DNA from: Methanoculleus sp. MH98A
Lineage (GTDB): Archaea; Halobacteriota; Methanomicrobia; Methanomicrobiales; Methanoculleaceae
DNA: 34,717 nucleotides
Reading direction: 5' to 3'
NCBI RefSeq assembly: GCF_000691865.1
Contig: NZ_JMIO01000011.1
Location: forward strand, 1-34,717
The notes under the pieces are model-generated. The model worked only from the letters and a program-made list of their open reading frames with translations, made no database searches and was not told the origin of the DNA. The translations under genes and the position numbers were made by a program. Positions 271 through 9,190 of the stretch are shown here, piece after piece (positions within the stretch are counted from its first letter, which is position 1; each line of letters starts with the position of its first letter).

Positions 271-1293
271 CTACGGGCAGTCGCGCCCATCCGCCCGCCG
301 CGTCCACTCCCGGTATTTCCCCTGCTCGAGCATCGCGTCCAGGATAACCATCGCGAGCATGCACTCCGCAACCGGGACGACCCGCGGCGCGATGCAGGGG
401 TCGTGCCGCCCTTCGACCGTTATCTCCCGCTCCTTCCCGGCGATATCGACGGTCCGTTGCGCCTTGCGGATCGAGGGCGTCGGCTTGACGGCAAGCCGGA
501 CGACGATATCCTGCCCGGTGCTGATTCCGCCAAGAACGCCGCCCGCATGGTTGCTCGAAAACCCTTCTGCGGTGATCGGATCGTTCATCTCGCTCCCGAA
601 GAGCCTCGCGGCGCCGAACCCCTCGCCAAGCTCGACACCCTTCACCGCACCGATGCCCATCATCGCCCCGGCGATGGCGGCGTCGAGCTTCCCGAAAACC
701 GGGTCCCCGAGGCCCGGCGGGCACCCGGTGGCCGTCACCTCGACGATGCCGCCCACGGAGTCGCCCGCATCCCGGGCGGCACGGATCTCCGCTTCCATCG
801 TTTCCGGATTCGTCGCGCCGTGCACCTCGACGACCCTCCCCCGGATCGCGATGCCGCTGGGTTCGAGGCAGCGAATCGCCACCGCTCCCGCCGCGACCCG
901 CGCAAGGGTCTCCCGGCCCGAACTCCTCCCGCCGCCGCGGTGGTCACGAAGGCCGTACTTCGCCTGCCAGGTGTAGTCCGCGTGCCCCGGCCGGAAGACG
1001 TCCCGGAGTGCGTCGTAGTCCTCCGACCGGACATCCCGGTTCCTGACGAGGAGCGCGATCGGGGCGCCGGTCGTTCGCCCCTCAAAAATTCCCGAGAGGA
1101 TCTCCACCCTGTCCGCCTCCTGCCGCCCGGACGCAAGCGGGCTCTTCCCCGGCCGCCTGCGGTCGAGGTAGGGCTGGATATCCGCCTCCGTGAGGGGGAC
1201 ATTGGGCGGGCAGCCGTCGACGACCGCACCCACCGCCAACCCGTGGCTCTCGCCGAACGTCGTGCACCTGAAGTTTCTTCCGAACGTGTTCAT
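271..1293 (-). CDS. aroC: Chorismate synthase
   Basis: Converts 5-enolpyruvylshikimate-3-phosphate to chorismate, the last common step of aromatic amino acid synthesis, using reduced flavin; cytosolic. The 340-residue product opens with [18 protein letters not shown], the family's N-terminal signature, and has the RRRPG segment near residue 48 and the GRSSGRET segment near residue 125, where flavin and substrate bind. The length is near the family norm. I start at the ATG at 1293 because the conserved N terminus begins there and it overlaps the preceding stop as ATGA; the frame is open further upstream but only inside aroKE. Last gene of the operon, so its product consumes what the upstream genes make. 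Family assignment is secure. Confidence 0.96.
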
Positions 1294-2666
1294 GCAAGCA
1301 TCTCCCGAACCAGTTCCGGCGTGACCGCAAGTCCGGTTATCAGCCGGAACTGCTCTGTTGCCTGGTGGACGAACATCTCCGTGCCGGGTATTGTCTCGCA
1401 CCCGGCCTCTCTCGCCGCCCGGATAAGCGGCGTCTCCGGTGGCGTGTAGACGAGGTCAAATACGGTCGTCCCACGCTCGAGGTCGTCCGCGGCAAGCAGG
1501 CTCCGGGTGTCGGGCTCCATCCCGACCGGGGTTGCGTGTACCACTACATCGGCGTCGCCCCCTTTGAACTCTTCGAGACCGCCCCACCGGCAGTCGAAGC
1601 GTTCCGCAAGCCCCCGCGCCGCACCCGGAGCCCGGGCAAGCACCATGACGTCCATATCAAGCGTTCTGAGCGCGTAGACCGCCGCGGCCGCCGCACCCCC
1701 GGCGCCGAGCACAACCGCCCGGGCGCCCCGGCGGTGGGCAAGCGGGATCCGTACCCCCAGCCAGTCGGTGTTGTGGCCGTACATCCTTCCGCCGCACCGG
1801 ACGACGGTGTTCACCGCCCCGATCGCTGTCGCGTGTTCGTCGATCTCATCGAGATGGCGCATCACGTCGGTCTTGAACGGGATGGTGACGGATAAGCCCT
1901 TCAGGGGGAGGAGGTTTGCGAGGCGGACGATGGTTCCCGCATCCGGCCACTCGAAGCGGGTGTAGTGGTAGTTCATCCCGAAGTGTTGAAAGAGCCGGTT
2001 GTAGAGGAGCGGGCTCCTGCTGTGGGCGCAGGGGTTCCCGGCGATGGCGCATACCATGAGACCCGGGTCCCGGTCGATCATAGCCCCGAGGCCCGAAAGG
2101 CCGAACCGCTCAAGGAGGGCGTCGCGCTCAGGCCTTCGCGTCTTCGCGTCTTCGCGTGCGGTCACATTCCCATATCCTTGCTCCCGGACGATCATATCCG
2201 CGACCTCCCCGGGCGTGCGCCTCCCGGTATCGATGCAGACGTCGGCCGCGCCGAGGTAGGCCTCCTTTCTCCGGAGAAGGAGCGTGCGCACCTCCTCTTC
2301 GGGGGCCAGATCGGTCAGCCCCGGCCGGTCGCTCCCGGAGATCCGCTCAACGATGACCCCGGGCGGGGCCGCTAGGAGGAAGACCCTGCCGTGCCGCCGG
2401 AGGTCGGCGACGTTTGCCGGGTCGCATACCGCCCCGCCGCCGGTGCCGATCACGCCCTCCGCCGTCCGGAGCGACGCGACGACCTCCCGCTCGAGGGCGC
2501 GGAAGTGCGCTTCCCCGTGCTGCCGGAAGATCTCCGGGATCGGCATCCCGGCCCGCTGCTCGATAAGCGCATCGGTGTCGTAGAACGGCAGCCCGAGGCG
2601 ATCCGCGAGGAGCCGCCCGACCGAGGTCTTCCCGGTCCCCCGGAAGCCGGTAAGGACGACCTTCAC
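1290..2666 (-). CDS. aroKE: Bifunctional shikimate kinase / shikimate dehydrogenase
   Basis: One 458-residue protein with two consecutive pathway activities. Residues about 1-165 are a P-loop shikimate kinase of the bacterial AroK type: [11 protein letters not shown] Walker A, the DTD substrate motif, [16 protein letters not shown] and an RPGL lid. Residues about 200-458 are a shikimate dehydrogenase: [14 protein letters not shown] with the catalytic Lys, GHNTDWLG with the catalytic Asp, the GAGGAAAAA dinucleotide loop and a C-terminal QATEQF. The start is a GTG overlapping the aroA stop (GTGA); it puts the P-loop at the usual distance from the N terminus. Most methanogens are known to use a GHMP-type shikimate kinase, so this fold and the fusion stand out. 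The linker near residues 170-190 is built from the 8-bp repeat described at 2134-2157. Confidence 0.93.
2134..2157. repeat. Three tandem CTTCGCGT units in the aroKE linker
   Basis: Three perfect consecutive 8-bp units lie inside the coding sequence joining the two domains of aroKE. On the coding strand they read ACGCGAAG three times and translate as AREDAKTRR. The same unit, slightly varied, forms both arms of the intergenic palindrome at 8481-8580. With an 8-bp period each unit is read in a different frame. This looks like an intergenic repeat that entered or seeded the inter-domain linker. Confidence 0.85.
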
Positions 2667-3931
2667 AGCAGCCCCTCCCCGTAGAGCGCCTCCCAGAACC
2701 CGGGGAACGACTTCTCCACGCATTCGGGGTCACGGATCGCCATCCCCCCGACCGCGAGCCCGAGCACGGCAAACGCCATCGCCGTCCGGTGGTCGTCGTG
2801 CGGGTCGACGGCCACCCCGTGGAGGGGCGCGGGCGTGATCGTGAGGGAATCCTCCGTGACCTCGACCCCCGCACCCATCCGCCGGAGGGTGTCCGCCGTC
2901 ACCCCGACGCGGTCGCTCTCCTTGTACTGCAGGTGCGCCGTCCCGGTGATCGTCGTCGGCGACCCTGCCGTCGCCGCCACCGCCGCGAGCGTCTGGACGG
3001 TGTCGGGGGACGAGGACATATCGATCTCGATGCCTTTGAGATCGCCCGTCCGCTCCACCGTCACTGCGTCGGTGCCGGCGGCGACGCTGCACCCCATCGC
3101 CTCGAGGGCGTCGAGGAACCGGCGGTCGCCCTGGACGGAGGTCGGGTTCAGGCCCGTGACCGCGACCCTCCCGCCGCAGACGGCCGCGACCGCGAAGAGA
3201 TAGGAGGCCGAGGAGTAGTCGCCCTCGACCCGGTAATCCCTCCCCCGGTAGGCTCTACCGCTCTCCACCCGGAACCGGTCGTAGCCCTGCCGCTCGATAT
3301 GTGCACCGAACCGGAGCATCACGTCCGCGGTCACGTCGAGGTAGGACCGCGAGGCCGGGGTCGCCGGGAGCGTGAGTTCCACGTCCTCCTCTGCGTAGGG
3401 CGCCGCCATCAGGATGGACGAGACGAACTGGCTGCTGATGCTTCCGTCGATCGCCGTCCTCCCGCCCCGGAGTCTGCCGGAGATGCGGATGGGGGGGTAG
3501 CCGGGCTCGCCGACGAACGCGACGTCACCCCCGAGGGCCCGGAGCGCCCCCGCAAGGGGGCCGACCGGCCGCTCGAGCATCCGCGGACTCCCCGTCAGCA
3601 CTACCGGGTGCTGCGAGAGGAGCGCCGCCGAGGTGAGGAGCCTTAGCGTCGTCCCGGAGTTCCCGCAGTCGATGGTCACCTCTCCCGGTGCGGGGAAGGA
3701 GCCGCCGCAGCCGGCGACGGCGATCTCCCCCGGCAGCCACTCGAGTTGCACCCCGAGGACTTCAAGCCCCCGGGCGGTCAGTTCCGTATCGGCCGCCCGG
3801 AGCGGTCTTTCGATCCGCGTCCTTCCCGAGGCGAGCGCTCCCGCGATCAGCGCCCGGTGGGTGTAACTCTTGGAGGGCGGCGCCTCGAACTTCGCGTCGA
3901 CCGGGCCGGTCTGCGACACGCGGACGATCAT
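2663..3931 (-). CDS. aroA: 3-phosphoshikimate 1-carboxyvinyltransferase (EPSP synthase)
   Basis: Transfers the enolpyruvyl group of PEP to shikimate-3-phosphate. The 422-residue protein shows the family signatures in order: SKSYTHRALIAGAL near residue 20 (shikimate-3-phosphate binding), NSGTTLRLLTSAA near 92, SSQFVSSILMAAP near 165, DYSSASYLFAVAA near 233, KESDRV near 335 and DHRTAMAFAV near 377. The ATG at 3931 overlaps the pheA stop as ATGA and gives the right N terminus (MIVRVSQTG); an upstream extension would only read pheA in another frame. The operon order places it after prephenate metabolism and before shikimate kinase, so gene order does not follow the chemistry. Identification is firm. 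Confidence 0.97.
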   Translation of the reverse strand: MIVRVSQTGPVDAKFEAPPSKSYTHRALIAGALASGRTRIERPLRAADTELTARGLEVLGVQLEWLPGEIAVAGCGGSFPAPGEVTIDCGNSGTTLRLLTSAALLSQHPVVLTGSPRMLERPVGPLAGALRALGGDVAFVGEPGYPPIRISGRLRGGRTAIDGSISSQFVSSILMAAPYAEEDVELTLPATPASRSYLDVTADVMLRFGAHIERQGYDRFRVESGRAYRGRDYRVEGDYSSASYLFAVAAVCGGRVAVTGLNPTSVQGDRRFLDALEAMGCSVAAGTDAVTVERTGDLKGIEIDMSSSPDTVQTLAAVAATAGSPTTITGTAHLQYKESDRVGVTADTLRRMGAGVEVTEDSLTITPAPLHGVAVDPHDDHRTAMAFAVLGLAVGGMAIRDPECVEKSFPGFWEALYGEGLL

Positions 3932-6532: not shown

Positions 6533-7323
6533 CGCTCAGTCTCCAGGGCTTCGGCCGCGCTTTTGCCCTCGTGCACCACCCGGGATATCGCGGCGATGAA
6601 CCGGGCGGGGTCGTCGCGCTGGAAGGCGTTCCTGCCCATACAGACGCCTGCCGCCCCCGCATCGATCGCGTCGCGGATGGTCGTGAGCGTCTCCATATCC
6701 CCGCCCTTCTCGCCGCCGGCGATCATCACCGGCACCGAGCAGGCGGCGGTGATCCGGCGGAACGTCTCCGGATCCCCGGTGTAGTTCGTCTTGATGAGGT
6801 CGGCCCCGAGTTCTTCCGCCACCCGGACGCAGTGCCCGATCGACTGCGGCGAGGTGGGGTCGATCCCCTTGCCGCGGGGGTAGATCATGATCAGGAGCGG
6901 TATCCCCCAGCGGTTGCAGTCCCGCACCACCTCGCCCGCCGATTCGAGCATCCGTGACTCGTTGGGCGCGCCGAGGTTGATGTGGATCGAGACCGCGTCG
7001 GCGCCGAGCGCGACCGCCTCCTCCACGGTGCAGACGAGCACCTTGTCATTCGGGTCCGGGTTCATCGAGGTGCTCGCGGAAAGGTGCACGATGAGCCCGA
7101 TATCCTTTCCGTGCTTCCGGTGCCCGCCTTTCACCATGCCCTTGTGGAGGACGATGGCGTTCGCCCCGCCCTCGCTCACCGCGTTGACCGTCTCGGTCAT
7201 GTTGCAGAGCCCTTCGATCTGGCCCATCGTGAACCCGTGATCCATGGGGATGACCACGGCGCGGCCGGTATTTCTGTCCATTATCCGCTCAAGGCGGATC
7301 TCTTTTCCAATCATATCCATCAC
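6529..7323 (-). CDS. ADTH synthase-family aldolase, copy 1 (AroA')
   Basis: Member of the DhnA/class I aldolase family that in methanogens condenses 6-deoxy-5-ketofructose-1-phosphate with aspartate semialdehyde to give ADTH, the precursor of 3-dehydroquinate. The 264-residue protein keeps [11 protein letters not shown] with the catalytic Asp, MIYPRGKG with the Tyr, [12 protein letters not shown] with the Schiff-base Lys, and the phosphate-binding IAGGEKG and [10 protein letters not shown] loops. The start is a GTG at 7323 overlapping the upstream stop (GTGA), or one of the ATGs at 7320 and 7314. It is a tandem paralogue of the gene at 7320-8117. Which copy is the true ADTH synthase, and which may act as fructose-bisphosphate aldolase or in making the deoxyketofructose phosphate, cannot be told from sequence alone. 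Confidence 0.9.
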
Positions 7324-8117
7324 GTCTTCAGAATCTCAACCGCTTCTTCTGCCGACCGCCCTTCATGAATGATCAGTGCGGCGGCACGGATAAGGCGATC
7401 GGGCGCCGGGTGCTGGAAGGCGTTCCTCCCGATCGATATCCCGGCGGCACCCCCCTCCATCGCACCCTCGACCAGGTCGAGGATCGCCGCTTCGTCGGTC
7501 TTCGAGCCGCCCGCGACCACGACCGGCACCGGGCATCCTCTCGTTACTTCGCGGAACGAGTCCGCATCCCCGGTGTAGACGGTCTTGACGATATCGGCGC
7601 CGAGCTCCGCCGCCACCCGTGCGGAGAGTTTCACGCTCTCGAGGTCATGCTCGTCGCTGACCTTCCTGCCCCGCGGGTACATCATCGCGAGGAGCGGCAT
7701 CCCCCACTCCATGCACGTGACCGCGACCCGGCCCAGGTCTTCGAGCATCCGTGCTTCGGAGTCGGCGCCGACGTTGATGTGCACCGATACGCCGTCGGCA
7801 CCCATCTTTAAGGCGTTCGTGACGGTGTTGACGAGCACCTTGTCGTTGGGGTCGGGGCCGATGCTGGTGCTCGCCGAGAGATGCATGATGAGACCGACGT
7901 CCCGCCCGTGCCCCCTATGGCCGTGCAGCGCAAGCCCAACGTGGCCGATGACCGCGTTCGCTCCGCCCTCGGCGACCAGGTCGATGGTTCTCCCTACGTC
8001 GACCAGCCCGGGGATGGGGCCGAGCGTCACCCCGTGGTCGAGCGGCACGATGATGGTCCTGCCGGTGTTCCGATCCATAATACGTTCCAGACGAATCTCT
8101 TTTCCTCTCATAACCAT
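7320..8117 (-). CDS. ADTH synthase-family aldolase, copy 2 (AroA')
   Basis: First gene of the aromatic operon; 265 residues, collinear with its neighbour. It has [61 protein letters not shown] with the Schiff-base Lys, and [14 protein letters not shown]. From memory, the segment around the catalytic Lys and the GGSKT loop are closer to Methanocaldococcus jannaschii ADTH synthase than copy 1 is; that is an impression, not an alignment. A strong ribosome site (GGGGAGG, about 8121-8127) precedes two possible ATGs at 8117 and 8111; spacing favours 8111, conventional annotation 8117. All catalytic residues are present, so both copies should be active. Confidence 0.88.
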
Positions 8118-8300: not shown

Positions 8301-8480
8301 AAAAACATCCACCACGCATTGGCTATATCGTTACGTGTTCTTGTATAAAAATATGCCGGATTTACACGCAGGAGGAGAATCCGGAGCAGGACAAGGCCCT
8401 GCGGAAAAAAGTATGCGGTTTGTCTTATTTCGGCTTTGTTGAAACCCTCTCCCGGAGGATGAATTATCTCCGGATAATCC

Positions 8481-8580
8481 ATGTCTCACCGACGCACGCG
8501 AAGGCGCGAAGAACGCGAAGTCTGGATGGGTATTGACTGTCTCCCTTCGCGACTTCGCGGCTTCGCGTGAGACCCACATC
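8481..8580. repeat. Large imperfect palindrome of CGCGAAG units
   Basis: The left arm (8481-8520) reads atgtctcac, then a short insertion, then three CGCGAAG-containing units. The right arm (about 8545-8580) is its inverse: three CTTCGCG units, then gtgagacccacat. The roughly 25-base centre, tctggatgggtattgactgt and a few more, is not repeated. The arms would pair over about 35 positions with few mismatches. The unit matches the tandem repeat inside aroKE. No coding function is apparent; the rest of the gap 8300-8640 holds only a small CCGGAG/CTCCGG inverted repeat at 8452-8473. Confidence 0.8.
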
Positions 8581-8642
8581 ACCCGCCTCTATCGGCAACC
8601 GAATGTTATCCAGGGGTTGTGGAAAGCATTTCAACAGGGCCC

Positions 8643-9134
8643 TTATTTCCGGCTCTTCTTGAACGATATGACGTCGCCGACGGTCATGGTCACCCGGCCG
8701 GGCCCGCCCGTGGAGATGCTGTCTTCAGCCGAGTCGATCAGCCTGATATTGAGTGCTTTCTCGAGTTTCTTCCGGACATCGTCTTCAGGGATGAGGTCGC
8801 CCTTCTCGATCTTTTTGACCAGAATCTCACGCTCCTTGATCGCCCGTGCAAGGTCGAGCGTGGACCACTCCTTCTCTTCCCGTGCCGCCCGGATACGGTC
8901 GGCGTAATCGTCGACGAGTTCTCCTTCCATCAGGTCAAAAACGTCCCTGGGCCTCCTCCTGGAGCCCTGTGGGGCGGCGAGTCCCGGCTTCTTCTGCGGG
9001 GCACCTCTTCGTCGCGGTTGCTGGACTTCTGTACCGTGTTTCGCACATCGAACGCAGACGCAGAGTTCTGCACCCTCGATCTGGATGGTTTTCGACGGTC
9101 CCACTATAGGAGCGCCGCATAGTTCGCACTGCAT
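8643..9134 (-). CDS. Multiprotein bridging factor, archaeal type (aMBF1)
   Basis: Predicted DNA- or ribosome-associated regulator related to eukaryotic MBF1. The 163-residue protein has an N-terminal zinc ribbon (CELC near residues 3-6 and CVRC near 27-30), a basic flexible linker, and a Cro/C1-type helix-turn-helix at about residues 70-130 (DYADRIRAAREEKEWSTLDLARA, then IKKIEKGD-like residues), ending in a basic tail. I choose the ATG at 9134 (MQCELCG), not the one at 9161: the minus-strand TATA element (9170-9176) lies only about 12 bases from 9161 but about 39 from 9134. It is divergent from PAN, a pairing I recall from other methanogens. Confidence 0.9.
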   Translation of the reverse strand: MQCELCGAPIVGPSKTIQIEGAELCVCVRCAKHGTEVQQPRRRGAPQKKPGLAAPQGSRRRPRDVFDLMEGELVDDYADRIRAAREEKEWSTLDLARAIKEREILVKKIEKGDLIPEDDVRKKLEKALNIRLIDSAEDSISTGGPGRVTMTVGDVISFKKSRK

Positions 9135-9146
9135 AAGTCTCGCAAA

Positions 9147-9190
9147 CAACTTTATATTCATTTTAACCTATATAATTAATCGAGGAGACC
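9147..9190. promoter_or_regulatory. Overlapping divergent promoters of aMBF1 and PAN
   Basis: TTTATATTC at 9151-9159 is a good TATA box for the plus strand, about 37 bases before the PAN ATG. TTATATA on the minus strand at 9170-9176 suits aMBF1 starting at 9134. The two boxes lie about 18 bases apart and their initiation regions overlap. The PAN ribosome site GAGGAG is at 9182-9187. The two polymerases could hardly occupy both promoters at once. Confidence 0.6.

Follow-up and report, generated by a model that had tools for sequence, protein, structure and literature searches.

Repeats built of CGCGAAG units occur in distantly related prokaryotes, one copy lying in Methanoculleus sp. MH98A, and how they arise and are maintained can now be put to the test. 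The window, which is the whole stretch of 34,717 nucleotides analysed here, had been described in an earlier note as carrying a large palindrome of tandem CGCGAAG units between the promoter of an aromatic operon and the 3′ end of an aMBF1 gene. The present analysis traces this copy to one MITE insertion, names a likely mobiliser and finds loops flipped between orthologs. The palindrome was confirmed, with three units, a 24-nt spacer and three further units at 8497-8567. Its position holds as well, in the gap between the minus-strand genes 8643-9161 and 7320-8117; the name aMBF1 is but weakly backed, its sole support here being an HTH_3 match of ORF 8643-9161 at 20.8 bits, below the cut-off of 23. 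The features concerned are as follows.

8497..8520, plus strand: left arm of three CGCGAAG units (8497-8503, 8505-8511, 8514-8520), from sequence reading and an inverted-repeat search.
8521..8544, plus strand: spacer (loop) of 24 nt, present in both orientations among MITE copies.
8545..8567, plus strand: right arm of three CTTCGCG units (8545-8551, 8553-8559, 8561-8567), then TGAG, from sequence reading and an inverted-repeat search.
8643..9161, minus strand: upstream gene, aMBF1-like according to the earlier note, with a weak HTH_3 match, from the ORF list and a profile search.
7320..8117, minus strand: gene heading the aromatic operon, a member of the DeoC/LacD aldolase family, from a profile search.

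As RNA, the palindrome is predicted to fold at -49.1 kcal/mol (z = -4.8), which none of 200 shuffles matched, and the DNA fold of 8490-8575 beats all shuffles on both strands (z = -7.2 on the plus strand and -5.0 on the minus strand). The main stem of the RNA fold has 9 + 7 + 7 = 23 pairs, with 6 apical pairs in addition. The proposed hairpin itself stands, and the figure of more than 30 pairs first given for it is slightly high, since the outer pairing GTCTCAC/GTGAGAC competes with the foot of the main stem. The matching outer sequences of that description (atgtctcac / gtgagacccacat) are present, but they are parts of a surrounding MITE that had been overlooked. The possible cruciform or RNA hairpin is supported by loop inversions between relatives, because folding inverted repeats are expected to yield such inversions. 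No Rfam match above the gathering score was found within the window.

The MITE around the palindrome

The palindrome is not free-standing but is the core of a MITE. The 21-nt inverted pair flanking it is the end of a 210-bp element, which is delimited as follows.

8432..8641, plus strand: 210-bp MITE with the palindrome as core, from terminal inverted repeats, a perfect 8-bp target duplication (TSD), relatives with and without the insertion, and further copies in the genus.
8432..8444, plus strand: left terminal inverted repeat GGCTTTGTTGAAA, from inverted-repeat and TSD analysis.
8629..8641, minus strand: right terminal inverted repeat, GGCCCTGTTGAAA on the minus strand, from inverted-repeat and TSD analysis.
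8424..8431, no strand: left copy of the TSD, CTTATTTC, a perfect 8-bp duplication.
8642..8649, no strand: right copy of the TSD, a perfect 8-bp duplication, within which ORF 8643-9161 (minus strand) has its stop codon.

The ORF is intact because the right copy of the duplication holds its stop codon. The assignment as a MITE follows from the terminal inverted repeats, the TSD, empty sites, a length too short for a transposase, the presence of several copies and an autonomous element with matching ends.

The flanks of the insertion were matched in 34 of 35 Methanoculleus genomes, and the element is present at the site in three of these: the own genome (G000), Methanoculleus sediminis S3Fa (G044) and Methanoculleus sp. 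FWC-SCC3 (G005). In 17 congeners, the flank matches adjoin each other or share 9-23 bases, with no element between them, and in the remaining 14 the left side has diverged or the gap length is different. When 27 orthologous loci were inspected at the start of the right-flank match, the site was visible in 17, all without the element; the exact 8-mer CTTATTTC occurs once in 12 of these and as a variant in 5, while the other 10 loci are turned or cut and display another place. This comparison shows that the MITE entered the 3′ end of the upstream gene, duplicating 8 bp of target, in an ancestor of G000 and its two relatives. The copies have since changed in length: the ortholog of the window's copy in G005 is one unit shorter, and an orthologous MITE site measures 210 bp in G044 versus 293 bp in G000 and G005. 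Another measures 197 bp in total in G044 versus 1,233 bp in G019. The palindrome of this 1,233-bp copy is filled by 21.7 tandem copies of a 47-mer (at L133, 938-1954) that are 99% alike.

Further copies lie in the own genome and in other genomes of the genus. A search with the MITE ends gave a MITE-like copy in 41 of 52 stretches, several of them orthologous to each other; the end search found none in the other 11, among which L115 was found inverted by another search. The duplications of the 40 testable copies are perfect in 23 and have one mismatch in 8; the 9 with two or more mismatches count against the MITE explanation. Two copies (L127 and L145) lack the core, and L146 combines the same ends with a different interior. 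Longer elements of 342-817 bp also share these ends: L326 1872-2688 (own genome, contig C13), L321 1474-1815, L308 2503-3125 and L313 1361-2104. Their interior consists of small hairpin modules such as GCACC..GGTGC, and their 8-bp duplications are perfect in L326 and L321 and have one mismatch in L308 and L313.

The likely mobiliser is an IS5-family element. In G041, a 1,010-bp element with the ends GGCTCTGTTGAA / TTCAACAGAGCC and the 8-bp TSD GATGCTTG encodes a 288-residue DDE transposase, which matches NF033579 (IS5 family) at 231 bits against a cut-off of 140 and PF01609 at 78 bits. Its 12-bp end differs from that of the MITE at one base, and the first 19 bases of the two elements also differ at one place. 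The 127-base left end was matched in 6 of 35 genomes (G041, G005, G008, G011, G050 and G021). For the protein, 10 of 35 gave a match, which was strong in G041, G021 and G011, confined to end fragments in G005 and weak in the others. From the ends and the duplication length, we infer that an IS5-family transposase acting in trans likely moved the MITE; this goes no further than inference since neither the left end nor the protein was found in the own genome in the 35-genome search. The IS6 family, first suggested by the ends and the 8-bp TSD, was dropped in favour of IS5, PF13610 being matched in none of nine genomes. The element resembles prokaryotic MITEs of IS5 type in being short and non-coding, in sharing terminal inverted repeats and an 8-bp TSD with an autonomous IS5 element, and in having many copies and empty sites. 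It differs in its flipping multi-unit palindrome core, which is also found outside the MITE and is able to hold long tandem arrays.

The dispersed CGCGAAG repeat family

The core belongs to a dispersed hairpin family built of tandem CGCGAAG units. The genome-wide count proposed in the earlier note gave 64 exact matches of the 15-mer CTTCGCGNCTTCGCG in the own genome versus 0 for the reversed control, and 137 versus 40 with up to two mismatches. In the window only, the excess is weak (19 matches with up to three mismatches versus 11.9 expected, reached by 5 of 100 shuffles). Across the order, the exact 15-mer occurs in 29 of 130 genomes, with 378 matches in G041 and 276 in G012; the reversed control gave 0 save for one match in each of two genomes. 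A unit search of the window and 38 own-genome stretches yielded 42 clusters, of which at least two (L121:2730 and L122:1158) are one-direction scatters and not palindromes. The palindromes have two topologies, CTTCGCG x3-TGAG-spacer-CTCA-CGCGAAG x3 (81-82 bp when complete) and CGCGAAG x3-spacer-CTTCGCG x3 (70-71 bp when complete), and both alternate in L123. The linkers between own-genome units are one base in 62 cases and two bases in 40, with 4 longer gaps of up to 33 nt, and the units themselves hardly vary.

A random distribution with respect to genes, named in the earlier note as the outcome that would speak against its reading, did not emerge: of 39 clusters that could be placed, 37 are intergenic, compared with some 18% of positions drawn at random from the same stretches, as judged from home-made codon-usage gene calls in stretches chosen around the elements, with three more clusters at stretch ends. 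The intergenic clusters lie in 11 convergent, 22 tandem and 4 divergent gaps, and at least one gene 3′ end adjoins 33 of the 37. This neighbourhood and the stable RNA hairpin directly behind a stop codon would suit a transcription terminator or an RNA-stability element of the upstream gene, a reading that we regard as improbable. By sequence reading, no T-run lies 3′ of the hairpin on either strand, which leaves the suggested link to a transcript end unsupported (a separate terminator scan covers loops of 3-8 nt only, so it is blind to this hairpin). Furthermore, many congeners have no hairpin at the site yet keep both genes, and the gap types are near the length-weighted control except for the few divergent ones. 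The MITE and its palindrome are most likely a passenger at this locus that would alter the 3′ UTR of the upstream gene as well as its distance from the aromatic operon, and a putative function of the palindrome here is probably slight.

Archaeal REP/BIME elements moved in trans by a Y1 tyrosine transposase (RAYT) would also be of high copy number and intergenic, with the alternating orientation and two spacer classes of BIMEs. As described in the available portions of PMC2817692 and PMC3733652, such systems share high-copy intergenic palindromes in head-to-head and tail-to-tail pairs with the repeats studied here. The arms, however, are tandem 7-mers with linkers of 1-2 nt and not one short palindrome. 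The Y1 profile PF01797 has no match in seven high-copy genomes (G000, G003, G005, G010, G012, G014 and G019); it was matched in 12 of 41 genomes searched, a set without G041, G044, G048 and G050, and the matches within the genus fall in repeat-poor genomes, for example G002, G009, G020, G022 and G023. We therefore consider movement by a RAYT very unlikely. REP elements have a GTAG or CGTC tag at one end of a short palindrome; among the clusters of the unit search, arms end in TGAG/CTCA.

Outside the MITE, the mobility of the stand-alone palindromes is no more than putative. For 21 elements compared with four relatives, no clean empty sites were found, and where an element is absent the intergenic DNA is replaced or rearranged (alignments in three relatives; G042 scored only). 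Related spacers with a TATAAG-like sequence occur in both orientations at different own-genome loci (L093, L119 and L123), and this sequence might belong to a promoter.

A second family member in the window lies within a gene, in a region (1980-2330) searched for this copy only.

2134..2156, plus strand: three CTTCGCG units in frame, from a unit search, a profile search and ortholog comparison.

The run lies in the linker that joins the shikimate kinase domain of ORF 1290-2723 (minus strand) to its shikimate dehydrogenase domain. In M. sediminis (G044; L514, around 1500-1800), the linker of this fusion gene holds a longer in-frame palindromic insert of about 108 nt more, and G042 and G048 have no palindromic insert there. 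Rickettsia palindromic elements, as far as the consulted part of PMC10969869 presents them, likewise sit in frame within protein genes; the likeness is one of position, and here there is one coding case while most copies are intergenic.

Loop inversion and proposed template switching

The spacers are found in both orientations between orthologs. At L122, the 31-nt spacers of G000 and of its G019 ortholog are exact reverse complements of each other, and the L121 spacer in G044 is inverted relative to G000, G019, G005 and G042. The L095 spacer in G044 is inverted relative to G000 and G005, with a borderline score of 0.61 that is complemented by the inverted surroundings. These come from 84 ortholog comparisons (21 elements, 4 relatives), in which the spacer has the same orientation in 32 cases and is inverted in 3, the element is absent in 43 and an ortholog is lacking in 6; the same-orientation set includes 29 reliable comparisons once the three at L105, with its 12-nt spacer, are subtracted. 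A flip at a MITE site distinguishes L141 (G003) from its orthologs L476 (G010) and L478 (G005). In L122, L121, L095 and L141 versus L476/L478, the spacer is inverted and the arms are kept, the pattern of a template-switch inversion. In addition, L128 and L129, nearly identical outside, carry the entire core, asymmetric module included, in opposite orientations.

Among the 41 MITE-like copies, 22 have the spacer orientation of the window, 16 the opposite one and 3 no such spacer. A tree of the outer parts of 38 copies gives five orientation changes (5-6 in the bootstrap), three of which are forced by well-supported branches. Flips are rare compared with inheritance, since orientation is clearly clustered on this tree (a value as low was reached by none of 500 shuffles).

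Clean inversions that recur between the arms could be the work of a site-specific invertase that turns the loop as a genetic on/off switch. Some stand-alone spacers (L093) contain a TTTATAA-like sequence, which we take to be a possible archaeal TATA box and which would fit such a switch. The elements are nevertheless spread over tens of loci and differ in spacer and in arm length, and the flips are rare on the tree; we give this reading a very small chance. Least probable of all is that the inverted loops arose in the assembly of short-read genomes: assemblers may be misled by inverted repeats and the G000 assembly has 306 contigs, but elements of 60-120 bp are shorter than common sequencing reads, the flips include the single-contig genomes G003 and G019, and flipped copies differ together with their arm linkers.

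Template switching between the inverted arms is the best mechanism for the flips, as far as it can be deduced from sequence. The inverted arms would fold on single-stranded DNA in replication, where the polymerase may switch template between them. Such a switch would turn the spacer round, as in the flips described above, and could keep the arms alike by copying one onto the other. In combination with slippage on the 8-nt repeats, it would also account for the observed changes in unit number and for modules growing within the palindrome. The mechanism agrees with arms that hardly vary around spacers that vary and flip; against it, the same sequences would result from an invertase or from arm-to-arm recombination. 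In yeast genes, inverted spacers and homogenised arms are reported to result when the template is switched from one arm of an inverted repeat to the other (PMC8604942, in the part consulted), and both orientations are described for loops of plastid DNA hairpins (PMC6342102, likewise in part). From these sources, the likeness lies in a spacer between inverted arms that is found, homoplastically, in both orientations. The spacers in the parts consulted are short (2-9 bp), whereas those at the stand-alone loci here are 23-36 nt and belong to a dispersed archaeal repeat family. Taken together, a MITE passenger, mobilisation by an IS5-type element and template switching at a dispersed hairpin core form the best joint explanation, and we consider it fairly probable. 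Loop flipping between orthologs provides evolutionary evidence for the formation and processing of hairpins of this kind in cells. The flipping loops are homoplastic and are therefore unsafe as typing or phylogenetic markers.

Occurrence in distant prokaryotes

The remark that similar CTTCGCG repeats occur in many prokaryotes was borne out. A scan with CTTCGCGNCTTCGCGTGAG gave at least 119 stretches, 23 archaeal and 96 bacterial among the matches listed, the bacterial ones being labelled with at least 15 phyla plus 3 unranked groups; many are metagenome bins, and one phylum is represented by a single record. Among the same listed matches, an inverted partner lies within 110-120 bases of 41 of 120 bacterial arms (79 without; reversed control, 1) and accompanies 26 of 28 archaeal arms (control, 1).

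A C linker between units creates the sequence GCGAAGC, a very stable DNA mini-hairpin according to the portion of PMC4686876 consulted. This mini-hairpin was considered as a rule of construction and rejected: C makes up 38 of 62 one-base linkers in the own genome but, among the bacterial matches listed, 56 of 211, with G leading at 104, and it is no general rule because C is a minority in those bacterial contigs. T is the one-base linker in 2 of 211 bacterial cases among the matches listed and in 6 of 62 in the own genome.

In the literature, judged by titles and the starts of abstracts, no description of CGCGAAG repeats was found, and six 15-mers of the repeat sought in literature text gave no match. 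A survey of prokaryote satellites lists satellites of Methanoculleus marisnigri in the part consulted (PMC6749651), and CGCGAAG repeats go unmentioned in the consulted part of the genome paper on M. marisnigri (PMC3035220).

The CGCGAAG/CTTCGCG palindromes might even be one transposase-free family across both domains, namely template-switching hairpins with identical arms and flipping loops that grow by slippage and ride in MITEs and genes, the loops perhaps acting as slow switches; we hold this broad view to be rather unlikely. In Candidatus Chloroploca (L159, L164, L178, L271 and L276), the unit array lies mid-way in a dispersed sequence of greater length that has outer inverted ends of its own, and this arrangement, read by eye, parallels the MITE case.
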